Source: an uncultured Pelagibacteraceae bacterium
Lineage (GTDB): Bacteria; Pseudomonadota; Alphaproteobacteria; Pelagibacterales; Pelagibacteraceae
Length of the DNA stretch: 64,000 bases
Direction: 5' to 3'
NCBI GenBank assembly: GCA_902562875.1
Contig: CACEVB010000001.1
Span: forward strand, 62,001-126,000
Shown here: one piece after another, positions 5,814 through 8,943 of the stretch
Numbering within the stretch: position 1 is the stretch's first letter
How the letters are laid out: every line of letters starts with the position of its first letter
The notes under the pieces: model-generated
The model's database searches: none
What the model was told of the DNA's origin: nothing
Seen by the model: only the letters and a program-made list of their open reading frames with translations
Program-made: the position numbers and the translations under genes

Positions 5814-5984
5814 TGAACCTCCAAAAAAAATAAAGTTAAACGATTCTTGCTCAAAAATCTCATGTTTAATAAAGATATGTGTTATGATTGTTATTAAAGA
5901 TGTCTTTTTTTCAACTTAAAAGTTAATATTTTACTAAGTGCTTGCAGTTAAAATTTTGGACACATTTAGATGTTAGATATTTAT

Positions 5985-6287
5985 ATGAATTATAAATTAT
6001 TATTAATCTGTTTCATAGGTTTGATTTTTGTCAACGGATGTCAAACTATAAAAAATAAATCAGATGAAGTGGCAGACAGAGAAAATGAAAGATTTGGACA
6101 ATTTGTGGGAAAGCAAGCTACAGAGCTTAAAATGGAATTAGGAGCACCCTCAGACGATTTTATAAACAATTTAGGTAATGAGATATTGGTTTATAAAACT
6201 AAAAAGTACGGAATTCCCTGTGAAAGGAAATTTACAATCAATACTAACGGAACTGTGATAGGATTTTCTTCGAGCGGGTGTATTTAA
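5985..6287 (+). CDS. predicted lipoprotein, possibly BamE/OmlA-like
   Basis: A 100-residue protein beginning MNYKLLLICF with a short hydrophobic stretch and the lipobox-like FVNGC, so Cys19 would be lipidated. The in-frame ATG at 5970 would add LDIY with an acidic residue to the signal peptide n-region; I prefer 5985. After a charged linker comes FGQFVGKQATELKMELGAP, which recalls the start of small SmpA/OmlA (BamE) type domains, and two cysteines near the C-terminus (GIPCER, SSSGCI) that could form a disulfide. The family is not certain. Single gene between the permease and a hairpin at 6289. Confidence 0.7.
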   Translation: MNYKLLLICFIGLIFVNGCQTIKNKSDEVADRENERFGQFVGKQATELKMELGAPSDDFINNLGNEILVYKTKKYGIPCERKFTINTNGTVIGFSSSGCI

Positions 6288-6288
6288 T

Positions 6289-6313
6289 ACTTGTGGGAAA
6301 TATTCCCACAAGT
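6289..6313. terminator. hairpin between convergent genes, probable terminator
   Basis: A perfect 11-bp inverted repeat (ACTTGTGGGAA / TTCCCACAAGT) with a 3-base loop, starting just after the lipoprotein stop codon and ending 11 bases before the hsp20 stop. The T-tracts on both sides are weak, so it may act as a bidirectional terminator or simply as an mRNA 3'-end stabiliser. Confidence 0.6.
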
Positions 6314-6324
6314 AAGTTTAATAC

Positions 6325-6771
6325 TTATCTAATCTCTATAAGCTTCTTTTTTTTATGCTCAGGCACTATTCTTTCACAAGCTATCTTTAAAAGTCCATCT
6401 TTCAATTCTGCACCATTTACTTTCACATCATCTGCAATTGTAAATGATCTAGCAAATTGTCTTTGAGATATTCCTTTGTGAATTATTTCGCCATTTACGT
6501 CTTTGTCTTCGGACTTACTAATTTGTTTAGTTCTTACTGTTAACAAATTATCTTCAAACTCAACTTCAACATCTTTCTTATTAAAACCAGCAAGTGCAAC
6601 CTCAATTGAGTAATTGTCCTTACCTGTTTTTCTGATGTTGTATGGCGGGTAATTTGATTGTAAACTTAAATTACCATTACCAAGCATATTCTCAAATTGG
6701 TCAAACATATCGTCGAAACCAATTGAAAAAGGTCTTAGCGAGTTAAATATAGATAGATCCTTACTTGTCAT
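6325..6771 (-). CDS. small heat shock protein, Hsp20 family
   Basis: An ATP-independent holdase of 148 residues that binds unfolding proteins. The N-terminal part has the IbpA-type FSIGFDDMFDQFENML. The alpha-crystallin domain spans about residues 45-135 (PPYNIRKTGKDNYSIEVAL, with GLLKIACER near its end), and a basic tail follows. I place the start at 6771, not at the upstream in-frame ATG at 6810, because a strong AGGAGG lies 4-5 bases before 6771 and because the 6810 ATG is buried in a leader hairpin. The leader looks like a ROSE RNA thermometer, which is the usual control of such genes in rhizobia. Confidence 0.93.
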   Translation of the reverse strand: MTSKDLSIFNSLRPFSIGFDDMFDQFENMLGNGNLSLQSNYPPYNIRKTGKDNYSIEVALAGFNKKDVEVEFEDNLLTVRTKQISKSEDKDVNGEIIHKGISQRQFARSFTIADDVKVNGAELKDGLLKIACERIVPEHKKKKLIEIR

Positions 6772-6822
6772 ATATCCTCCTTTGTTAGCAAGGTTATTAC
6801 GAAGCCCCATAAGGCGACCTCA
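6772..6822 (-). promoter_or_regulatory. ROSE-like RNA thermometer in the hsp20 leader
   Basis: Read on the minus strand, the leader has two hairpins. The first (6801-6821) pairs GAGGTCGCC with GGGGCTTC across a short loop with one bulged G. The second (6776-6793) pairs CCTTGCT with AAGGAGG across AACA and would mask the Shine-Dalgarno. The anti-Shine-Dalgarno contains TTGCT, matching the U(U/C)GCU element known from ROSE thermometers, where a G-G contact opposite the Shine-Dalgarno makes the stem melt easily. The pairing is read directly; temperature response is inference. Confidence 0.6.
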
Positions 6823-6825
6823 ATT

Positions 6826-6856
6826 TTCATATAATTATTAATTTTTAAATTTCAAT
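6826..6856 (-). promoter_or_regulatory. possible RpoH-type promoter of hsp20
   Basis: On the minus strand ATTG (6853-6856) and ATTATATGAA (6826-6835) are 17 bases apart. This resembles the alphaproteobacterial RpoH pattern CTTG-N16-18-CYTATNTNNG, with one mismatch in the -35 and two in the -10 part. Transcription would start around 6819-6823, at the foot of the first leader hairpin. Confidence 0.35.
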
Positions 6857-6867
6857 ACTAATTTGAT

Positions 6868-8943
6868 TTATATTTTACCAGAAACTTTTAAAGCAAATGC
6901 ATAGTCTAATGCTATCTCCTCAATCGCGCCATCTCTTCCAGATTTACCACCATGTCCTGCATTCATTTCTGTTTTTAAAAGAAGTAAATTATTATCAGTT
7001 TTATAGTCTCTAAGTTTTGCAGTAAATTTAAGTGGTTCATCAAATAACACCCTGTTATCGCTCAAACTAGTTGTAATTAAAATGTGAGGATAATTCATTT
7101 TTTTAATATTGTTGTAGGGAGCGTAGGAATAAATATAATCAAAGTGTTCTCTATTTTCTTTGGCATTTCCAAATTCATCAAACTCTCCTATTGTTAGAGG
7201 TAAAGAATGATCAAGATTTGTTGTAAGAGAGTCAACAAATGGAACAGCCATAATAATTGCTAGAAATAAATCTGGATTTTGATTTACCGAAGCCCCCATT
7301 AACAATCCACCAGCTGAGCCCCCAAAACCAATAATTTTTCCTTTTGAGGTATATTTCATTTTACATAAATGTTCTCCAGCTGCTAAATAATCCTCAAATG
7401 TATTTTTTTTATTTAACAACTTTCCTTCCTTCCACCATTTCATACCTCTCTCCATACCGCCTCTAATATGCGCTGTAGCCCAAATTATATCTCTATCTAT
7501 TAAACTTAACTTAGTTGAAGAAAATGAAGGTGACATAGAATTTCCATAAGATCCGTATCCATAAAGAAGTAAATGAGCAGAACCATCTAACTTGGTTTTT
7601 TTGTGTCTTGTTATAGTTATTGGAACTTTTCTTCCGTCGTGCGAAGTACATTCTATTCTCTCAACAATATAATTACTTGGGTAATGTCCAGAAGGTATTT
7701 CTTGTTCTTTTACTAGCTTTCTCTCTTTACTTTTAAGATTGTATAAATATGTCCTATTTTGAGTTTTTGGAGAGGAATAACTTAAATAAATTTGATCGGT
7801 ATTTCTATCTTTCTTAATCAAAGAAATCCCTGGATCAATAACCTTTTCGTCAGTAAATAATATTTCTTCCTCTTCTCCATTTAATATATTTTTTGCAAAA
7901 ACTTTAGCCAAAGCATTTGAAGTTTCAGATCTTAAAATCCAATTATTTAAAAATGTTAAACCGCCTATAAGAACTTCATCTTGAGGAGGTATATAAGTTA
8001 CCCACTTTTGTTTTGATAAATCTTTACAAAAATCTATTTTGAAATCTTCTGCATTTTCGTTTGTATGCATATAGAAGTAACTGTTCCACGAATTTACTGA
8101 ATAAATTATTCCCTTTTTCCTTTTTTTTATCAACTTTGGTTCAGGTTTTTCTTCATCTATTCTAAAATAATATTGCTCCGAGGTGTTGTGATCTGATGTA
8201 GTTATTATAAAAAATTTCTCATCGGAAGTAATTCCTATTCCTACAGTAAAAGCATCACTTTTTTCCTCAAAAATTAGAGTATCTTCACTTACACTATTGC
8301 CAATTTTGTGTCTGTATATTTTTCTTGGTCTATGAAACTCATCGAGCTTAGAATAAAAAATATATTTATCGTCTTGGCTGAAAGTTATGTTTCCAGATGT
8401 ATCTTTGATTTTTTCAGATATTTTTTTTCTCGTTTCTATATCTCTTAAATAAATTGTATAATATTCAGACCCTTTTAAATCAAGAGAGTATCCTAAAATT
8501 TTGTCATTGTTACTCACCTCTAAATCACCAACACCAAAATATTCAGTTTTCAGTTTCTTTTTTTCTTCGTCTCCATTCCAATACTCCTCAATTACCTTAC
8601 CATCAATTCGTCTCCTCAGTTTAATCGAATAATTTCCTTCTTGAGTTGTTTTGGTCCAATATTCATAAACTTTATCTCTAAAAGGAAGAGATTCATCATC
8701 TAGCTTAATACGACCCTTAATTTCATTAAATAATTTCTTTTGACATTCATTTGTATCTTTTAAATGGAAATCTGTAAATTTGTTCTCTTCCTCTAAGTAT
8801 TTCCGTACTTCAGGATCAAGTTTTGAGCTATCTTTTAGAACTTCAAGTATATTTGATTGATGTACCCAACTATAATCATCCTCCCAAGTAGTGTTGTGAC
8901 AAGATTTAAGTTCAGTTTTTTTTTTAAGTTGTGGTATTTTCAT
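6868..8943 (-). CDS. ptrB: oligopeptidase B (prolyl oligopeptidase family S9A)
   Basis: A cytoplasmic serine peptidase of 691 residues that cuts short peptides after basic residues. The N-terminal seven-bladed propeller occupies about residues 75-415. The alpha/beta hydrolase domain follows with the nucleophile Ser543 in GGSAGG, Asp629 in LSDNRV and His664 in GHGGKSGR. The acidic stretch TIGEFDEFGN near 584-593 fits the basic-residue specificity of oligopeptidase B rather than proline specificity. Length agrees with the family (about 680-720). No signal peptide. Transcription diverges from a J-domain gene whose start lies only 15 bases away. Confidence 0.92.
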   Translation of the reverse strand: MKIPQLKKKTELKSCHNTTWEDDYSWVHQSNILEVLKDSSKLDPEVRKYLEEENKFTDFHLKDTNECQKKLFNEIKGRIKLDDESLPFRDKVYEYWTKTTQEGNYSIKLRRRIDGKVIEEYWNGDEEKKKLKTEYFGVGDLEVSNNDKILGYSLDLKGSEYYTIYLRDIETRKKISEKIKDTSGNITFSQDDKYIFYSKLDEFHRPRKIYRHKIGNSVSEDTLIFEEKSDAFTVGIGITSDEKFFIITTSDHNTSEQYYFRIDEEKPEPKLIKKRKKGIIYSVNSWNSYFYMHTNENAEDFKIDFCKDLSKQKWVTYIPPQDEVLIGGLTFLNNWILRSETSNALAKVFAKNILNGEEEEILFTDEKVIDPGISLIKKDRNTDQIYLSYSSPKTQNRTYLYNLKSKERKLVKEQEIPSGHYPSNYIVERIECTSHDGRKVPITITRHKKTKLDGSAHLLLYGYGSYGNSMSPSFSSTKLSLIDRDIIWATAHIRGGMERGMKWWKEGKLLNKKNTFEDYLAAGEHLCKMKYTSKGKIIGFGGSAGGLLMGASVNQNPDLFLAIIMAVPFVDSLTTNLDHSLPLTIGEFDEFGNAKENREHFDYIYSYAPYNNIKKMNYPHILITTSLSDNRVLFDEPLKFTAKLRDYKTDNNLLLLKTEMNAGHGGKSGRDGAIEEIALDYAFALKVSGKI

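Follow-up and report, generated by a model that had tools for sequence, protein, structure and literature searches.

The ROSE elements of alphaproteobacteria are modelled in Rfam as RF00435, with Bradyrhizobium hspA as founding member, and RF02523 (ROSE_3) presumably comprises the short ROSE-like thermometers of Pseudomonas ibpA. FourU thermometers are defined by UUUU opposite the Shine-Dalgarno (SD) sequence. PMC3669281 and PMC11342760 describe a ROSE-like element by a U(U/C)GCU which, within the 3' hairpin, pairs imperfectly with the SD and leaves a predicted bulged G. The two-hairpin leaders of Pseudomonas ibpA were shown to be thermometers; their SD hairpins have energies of -4.1 to -7.6 kcal/mol, the sigma32-type promoter pattern reads CTTGAA-N(13-18)-CNCCATAT, and over 40 ROSE candidates are cited from Waldminghaus 2005 (all from the accessible part of PMC3669281). 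A 2025 paper (PMC13198564) ranks SAR11 first in abundance among the heterotrophic bacteria of the marine plankton and credits them with two sigma factors and a small number of transcriptional regulators. An earlier report of a SAR11 thermometer was not found in the open-licence papers searched; the Waldminghaus 2005 candidates may include SAR11. The accessible text of PMC2864571, PMC2864753, PMC5069961, PMC6429828 and PMC13198564 makes no mention of one, and the main text of the SAR11 structured-RNA survey PMC2704228 contains none of the terms heat shock, thermometer, thermosensor, hsp20 or ibpA.

The window analysed here is a stretch of 64,000 nucleotides from an uncultured Pelagibacteraceae bacterium (genome G000, contig C1, 197 kb out of 1.07 Mb). 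It contains, on the minus strand, an open reading frame for a small heat-shock protein of 148 amino acids (hsp20, 6325..6771), whose product belongs to the HSP20/alpha-crystallin family (Pfam PF00011, E 4.1e-16). The prolyl oligopeptidase gene 5' of hsp20 ends at 6868, and the 96-base gap between the two genes is filled by a promoter and a leader of ~50 bases with two hairpins, all on the minus strand. In transcript sense the order is TATTGAAA, a spacer, ATTATATG, GAGGUCGCCUUAUGGGGCUUC (hairpin I) and CCUUGCUAACAAAGGAGG (SD hairpin), the final base of which sits four bases 5' of the AUG. In hairpin I (GAGGUC-G-CC UUAU GGGGCUUC, 6801..6821), bases 6821-6813 pair with 6808-6801 and the G at 6815 is bulged. 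In the SD hairpin, the anti-SD strand CCUUGCU (6787..6793), which includes the ROSE motif UUGCU, pairs with the SD AAGGAGG (6776..6782) in the order 6793-6787 to 6782-6776, with G 6789 bulged. A sequence-only reading had described a two-hairpin leader of about 50 bases in which CCTTGCT pairs with AAGGAGG; this observation was confirmed and, moreover, CTTGCT is present in 100 of 100 distinct Pelagibacter hsp20 leaders.

Judged by sequence and predicted folding, this leader is a strong candidate for an RNA thermometer of the ROSE type with two hairpins. Most likely it was inherited as a ROSE element and shortened to these two hairpins; its temperature response is a predicted one. By the published definition it is a ROSE-like element: it precedes a small heat-shock protein gene, its U(U/C)GCU pairs with the SD with a predicted bulged G, and the required minimum of one further hairpin 5' of the sensor is provided by hairpin I; the gathering scores of RF00435, RF01832 and RF02523 are not reached. 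The window and the family f1 leaders have two hairpins and not the three to four of the classical rhizobial ROSE, and the absence of UUUU from 6793-6783 excludes the FourU type. Like RF00435, the SAR11 element has UUGCU opposite the SD and a hairpin I in which a bulged G, two C-G pairs and a loop of UUAU recur (cCgGccGCCuuauGGggCcGg in the model, GAGGUCGCCUUAUGGGGCUUC in the window). Unlike RF00435, it spans ~50 instead of ~94 positions, and neither the window nor the f1 leaders read have the middle hairpin or the lower SD stem (CCAUG/UAUGG in the model). As far as the Pseudomonas ibpA leaders are described in the available text of PMC3669281, they share with the SAR11 leader the two hairpins, the U(U/C)GCU that blocks the SD in hairpin II, the small heat-shock protein gene and the short length (61-62 bases in Pseudomonas, ~50 in SAR11), and the sigma32-type promoter CTTGAA-N(13-18)-CNCCATAT is found in SAR11 relatives. 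The SAR11 SD hairpin differs in that it has no flanking G-C pairs of the kind described for Pseudomonas and is predicted to be weaker. Further differences from Pseudomonas are the bulged G of hairpin I, which is that of alphaproteobacterial ROSE, and a possible additional pairing with codons 2-4.

The promoter was claimed to be RpoH-like. Within 100 bases upstream, every one of the 100 distinct leaders has TTGAA, while 78 have CTTGAA and 73 have CCATAT. The window itself has ATTGAA, with the -35 element TTGAAA at 6850..6855 (minus strand), and the -10 element ATTATATG (6828..6835, minus strand), a weak form of the relatives' common CCCATATA that lacks its CC, so that CCATAT is not present. With a matrix from 140 leaders, the window included, this promoter ranked 12 among 394,094 contig positions, eleven scoring higher. 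Among the leaders containing TTGAA, to which the spacing tally was confined, the distance from -35 to -10 was identical in 128 of 140 and that from -10 to hairpin I in 112 of 140. The strict RpoH pattern had 6 matches in 21 genomes, one of them before an hsp20 (G015) and none in the window's genome. An RpoH gene that scores above the curated cut-off is present in this genome (G000:C1:172052-172858) and in 15 of 21 genomes, many of which are incomplete. An RpoH-type promoter is clear in the relatives, and that of the window is weaker, the CC of its -10 having been lost. Because the distance from -10 to hairpin I is the same in most leaders, the 5' end of the transcript is likely to lie at the foot of hairpin I, which is where RpoH-type transcription would start.

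For the comparison of leaders, 109 sequences were obtained from 110 loci (79 of 80 from genome contigs and 30 from whole genomes; L016, which lacks upstream sequence, was not counted), of which 100 were distinct. RNAalifold found hairpin I with its bulged G unaided in the MAFFT alignment of these Pelagibacter leaders; an SD hairpin was not predicted in the same alignment. In the 100 distinct leaders, 98.1% of the hairpin I cells were paired and double changes occurred at 5 of 9 pairs; out of 500 shuffles, none reached the paired percentage, none the covariation score and 20 the number of double-change pairs. In a more diverse set of 48 leaders from genera g1-g5, double-sided changes were seen at 7 of 9 pairs (reached by 1 of 500 shuffles), again with 98.1% paired cells and with a covariation score of 0.493 (each reached by 0 of 500). 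The number of double-change cells was 44, compared to a shuffle average of 9.1, and versions of the hairpin slid along the alignment were at most 53% paired. The bulged G is an invariant column in the 48-leader set, the bulged-G shape of the hairpin is that of hairpin I in the Rfam ROSE model, and the top of the hairpin is nearly invariant. The check for compensatory changes, proposed with the sequence-only reading, was thus strongly positive for hairpin I (7 of 9 pairs), but the SD stem is nearly invariant and offered one informative change, from U to C in genus g3.

A nearly invariant hairpin top would also suit a protein-binding site. Hsp20 could bind its own 5' UTR and repress translation, the hairpins being the protein site and temperature acting via the protein, and self-repression of IbpA through the 5' UTR is indeed reported for E. 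coli and gamma-proteobacteria (available text of PMC10474464). The title of that paper ties the effect to a conserved arginine and to gamma-proteobacteria, and it extends to SAR11 only by analogy. We consider such autoregulation unlikely as the explanation of the leader; besides, it is compatible with a thermometer and does not exclude one. As part of a thermometer, hairpin I would remain folded on warming and probably guards the 5' end or aids folding.

In the SD hairpin both strands are nearly invariant and, therefore, little covariation can be expected from it. All 116 distinct family f1 leaders allow 5 to 7 standard SD pairs with one G bulged, which is consistent with the thermometer model but does not count as covariation. 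The energy of the SD hairpin at 15 °C was calculated with ViennaRNA to be -4.4 kcal/mol in the window and -2.6 kcal/mol as the mean of 100 leaders. Between 5 and 42 °C, the predicted exposure of the SD in the window rises from 0.08 to 0.33. Its mean over the 100 leaders is flat (0.59 to 0.61), because the anti-SD strand often prefers a rival pairing with codons 2-4; when the upstream sequence was shuffled, the mean exposure was lower still (0.49 to 0.52). In the proposed mechanism, CCUUGCU would pair imperfectly with AAGGAGG in the cold, with G 6789 bulged or in a G-G pair, and block ribosome binding; warming would melt the weak SD hairpin, and translation of Hsp20 would begin. If functional, the leader would be a direct RNA temperature sensor in SAR11 and a testable handle on the response of SAR11 to warming. 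For the ibpA gene of Ca. P. ubique (SAR11_0181), a study of sulfur limitation lists a 3.69-fold change of the mRNA in one condition and changes of 3.74- and 7.63-fold of the protein in two (PMC5069961). These figures are unrelated to temperature and, if orthology with hsp20 is assumed, hint at compatibility with translational control.

The folding energy of the window leader is ordinary (z -0.74; 40 of 200 shuffles were equally stable), and the case therefore rests on conservation. An ordinary folding energy is what would be seen if an ordinary SD had met an accidental upstream complement, without any regulation. However, the anti-SD is invariant in 100 distinct leaders, hairpin I covaries, ROSE models match at the same spot in relatives and the motif is common in the class, so that we regard a chance origin as highly improbable. 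Contig C1 has 254 ORFs of 80 or more amino acids, and in only 37 of these does an SD-like 4-mer lie before the start. The SD of hsp20 is a long one (AAGGAGG), and hsp20 is the sole member of the 37 with a U(U/C)GCU at a distance of up to 22 bases on the 5' side of the SD-like 4-mer (~0.03 expected per start).

A search with the Rfam ROSE models had also been suggested. At gathering level no match was obtained in the window, and an E-value scan of 6700-6900 gave no ROSE. In a tighter scan of 81 bases, RF00435 matched the window leader with 12.0 bits (cut-off 45, E 7.3), behind a miRNA family; in this alignment, hairpin I lies on ROSE hairpin I and UUGCU on UUGCU. The sole RF00435 match in 21 genomes at E up to 10 was an hsp20 leader. 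In 101 Pelagibacter genomes, the two strongest matches to RF02523 were hsp20 leaders, namely those of G056 (35.1 bits of the 43 bits required for gathering, E 7.7e-6) and G029 (E 3.5e-4), and five others (E 0.2-0.9) lay away from hsp20 leaders; at E up to 1 the model detected just these 2 leaders, though hsp20 was found in 82 of the 101 genomes. When the 101-base leader of G002 was compared with 4227 Rfam families, ROSE_3 and ROSE were the top two with 19.3 bits each (E 0.027 and 0.33). Ten relatives scanned jointly gave one ROSE match (L171, E 0.19) with unrelated matches of similar strength beside it, and unrelated miRNA families had better E-values elsewhere. Sub-threshold matches were obtained in control genomes, too, with ROSE_3 in 6 of 14 and with RF00435 in 3 of 14. 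The suggested search therefore had no result at gathering score and sub-threshold results on the window leader and on a few leaders of relatives. RF01832 was discarded, having scattered weak matches only, in 13 of 21 genomes vs 12 of 14 controls.

A covariance model built from 30 SAR11 leaders, the window among them (R1), found on the 197-kb contig the hsp20 leader alone (66.4 bits; next 10.7). Outside SAR11 it had weak matches (E 0.003-0.1) in 13 of 289 genomes, 4 of the 13 directly before hsp20 and 9 not. In the order, stretches from 60 genomes with an hsp20 match were surveyed. CTTGCT is kept in genera g2 (2 leaders), g4 (1) and g5 (15). The two leaders of genus g3 have CTCGCT with the SD GGAGA, a U-to-C change opposite G which preserves the SD pairing; in one of them (L169) this pairing amounts to -5.8 kcal/mol at 15 °C vs -0.8 kcal/mol for the rival codon pairing, which is nearly lost. 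The leader of family f2, the second family of the order (16 rows, one incomplete), is a different one; the full rows contain AAUCGCUUAAGGAGGAUU, and UCGCU once more precedes the SD. For 8 of these 16 rows the fold predicted at 15 °C is an extended SD hairpin with a bulged G; in the remainder other folds are favoured, and folds with further hairpins appear. One f2 leader (L177:181-228) has a weak match to the Rfam Hsp17 thermometer around its SD hairpin (19.8 bits, E 6.2). A divergent hsp20 with 55% identity (L188, G057:C12) has a leader with UUGCU and a bulged G in both hairpins; it may be a paralogue, a transfer or a contaminant.

In the class, RF00435 matched 21 of 142 genomes at E up to 0.1, and 0 of 142 reached the gathering score of 45 bits. 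Of the loci fetched via RF00435, 18 of 20 hold an hsp20 match, and 15 hits abut or overlap the hsp20 start. The class set comprised 53 loci, twenty of them chosen via these ROSE hits; two had no hsp20 match (L233, L234) and two no SD-like start (L221, L256), which left 49 leaders (43 distinct). U(U/C)GCU lies at most 60 bases from the start in 46 of the 49, and in 27 of the 28 leaders that were picked by protein match alone (closest hsp20 proteins; one from SAR11). Since no genome reaches the RF00435 cut-off and yet 46 of 49 leaders carry the motif, the data suggest that many hsp20 leaders of alphaproteobacteria escape the Rfam ROSE cut-offs; rebuilding the model would be an option. A bulged-G 5' hairpin was found in 24 of the 43 distinct class leaders (0.6 expected); it was dropped as a new class-wide motif, since the Rfam ROSE consensus already contains such a hairpin. 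The SAR11 element appears to be the form that a system common in its class takes in this group.

The statement that SAR11 retains a ROSE-like leader is supported by the invariant CTTGCT, the covariation of hairpin I and the U(U/C)GCU in the class leaders; the outcomes of the covariation check and of the model search did not refute it. For the thermometer we counted, in addition to these three, the SD pairing that all distinct f1 leaders allow and that g3 keeps, the UCGCU in f2, the position of the best ROSE_3 and RF00435 matches on hsp20 leaders, the RpoH gene and the layout shared with Pseudomonas ibpA. Counted against it were the lack of a gathering-level Rfam match, the sparse ROSE_3 matches, the matches in controls, the flat mean SD exposure, the weak SD hairpin with its little covariation and the degraded -10 of the window.

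The rival pairing involves the first codons of hsp20. Across 103 distinct genes, codons 2-4 (ACA AGT AAG) do not differ in a single nucleotide. Of the 110 conserved amino-acid positions in these genes, just five have an invariant codon, and three of the five are codons 2, 3 and 4. Lys 4 is AAG in all 103, but Lys in hsp20 is AAA in 1073 of 1467 cases. Codon 5 varies (GAT/GAC), and the invariant block stops where complementarity to the anti-SD strand stops: AAGUAAG complements CUUGCUU, and in the window AGUAAGG pairs with CCUUGCU, the complementary segment AAGUAAGG lying in codons 2-5 (6759..6766, minus strand). At 15 °C the mean energies calculated with ViennaRNA were -3.5 kcal/mol for the codon pairing and -2.6 kcal/mol for the SD pairing, and the codon pairing was the better one in 82 of 100 leaders, the codons past the fourth being taken from the window for all leaders.

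Tentatively, the anti-SD strand may thus be shared, its partner being the SD in one fold and codons 2-4 in the other (AAGUAAG, 7 pairs, one of them G-U). The codon pairing would close a loop containing SD and AUG; in either fold the 30S footprint would be blocked, and either would weaken on warming. The invariance of the three codons, the AAG of Lys 4 against the preference for AAA, the end of the invariance at codon 5 and the predicted stability of the codon pairing, on a par with that of the SD pairing and greater in 82 of 100 leaders, argue for such sharing. The codon 2-4 sequence is found in 15 of 15 g5 leaders, is present in g4 and partly in g2, and the single g4 genome keeps AGTAAG although a residue was lost (MSKN). 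On the other hand, its leader favours the SD (-4.2 kcal/mol at 15 °C vs -2.1 kcal/mol for the coding-region pairing), the sequence is absent from g3 and L188, and the pairing is weak or lost in g3, the divergent L188 and family f2. Furthermore, codon 4 is AGA or AGG in 3 of 23 further leaders of genus g1, no compensatory pair was seen, and the third base of ACA is invariant although it is unpaired in CCUUGCU rows. Invariance near the start could also have other causes; in one control gene, a permease with 58 sequences, codons 9 and 10 are always AAA, whereas codons 2-4 are variable. A coding sequence that helps to close the ribosome-binding site is described for the Neisseria fHbp thermosensor, in which, by the available text of PMC4999090, coding sequences are the anti-RBS; in SAR11 they would pair with the anti-SD strand instead.

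A more far-reaching scenario, which we hold to be doubtful, is that SAR11 rebuilt ROSE during streamlining, losing the middle hairpin and the lower SD stem and fixing the first hsp20 codons to pair with the anti-SD. A strand of 7 bases would then toggle between SD and coding region, as a two-state lock lying partly inside the coding sequence and suited to the low and narrow temperature range of the sea.

The start of hsp20 is probably the ATG at 6771-6769. ATG is the start in 103 of 103 distinct genes, and the loci compared match over the full length from residue 1. A second ATG in the loop of hairpin I (6808..6810, minus strand) had been pointed out as a likely source of misannotation. It is in frame and in the loop as described, but the risk applies to this genome only: among 100 distinct leaders, only that of the window has an upstream ATG which is in frame and free of stops; 7 others have no upstream ATG, 76 have it out of frame, and in 16 it is in frame but a stop precedes hsp20. 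The upstream ATG is therefore probably not a start, and 6771 rather than 6810 is likely the true one. A conserved upstream ORF in the leader was rejected, because the reading frames differ among leaders. In G098, two hsp20 matches of equal score lie 5.4 kb apart on one contig (G098:C13:1764-2207 and 7158-7601), either by duplication or by an assembly artefact. Directly past the hsp20 stop of the window, a perfect hairpin (ACTTGTGGGAA/TTCCCACAAGT, 6289-6313) faces a convergent gene (5970-6287). It is probably a shared terminator; in several relatives the sequence of its stem is changed yet paired, e.g. CTTGCGGAG/CTCCGCAAG.
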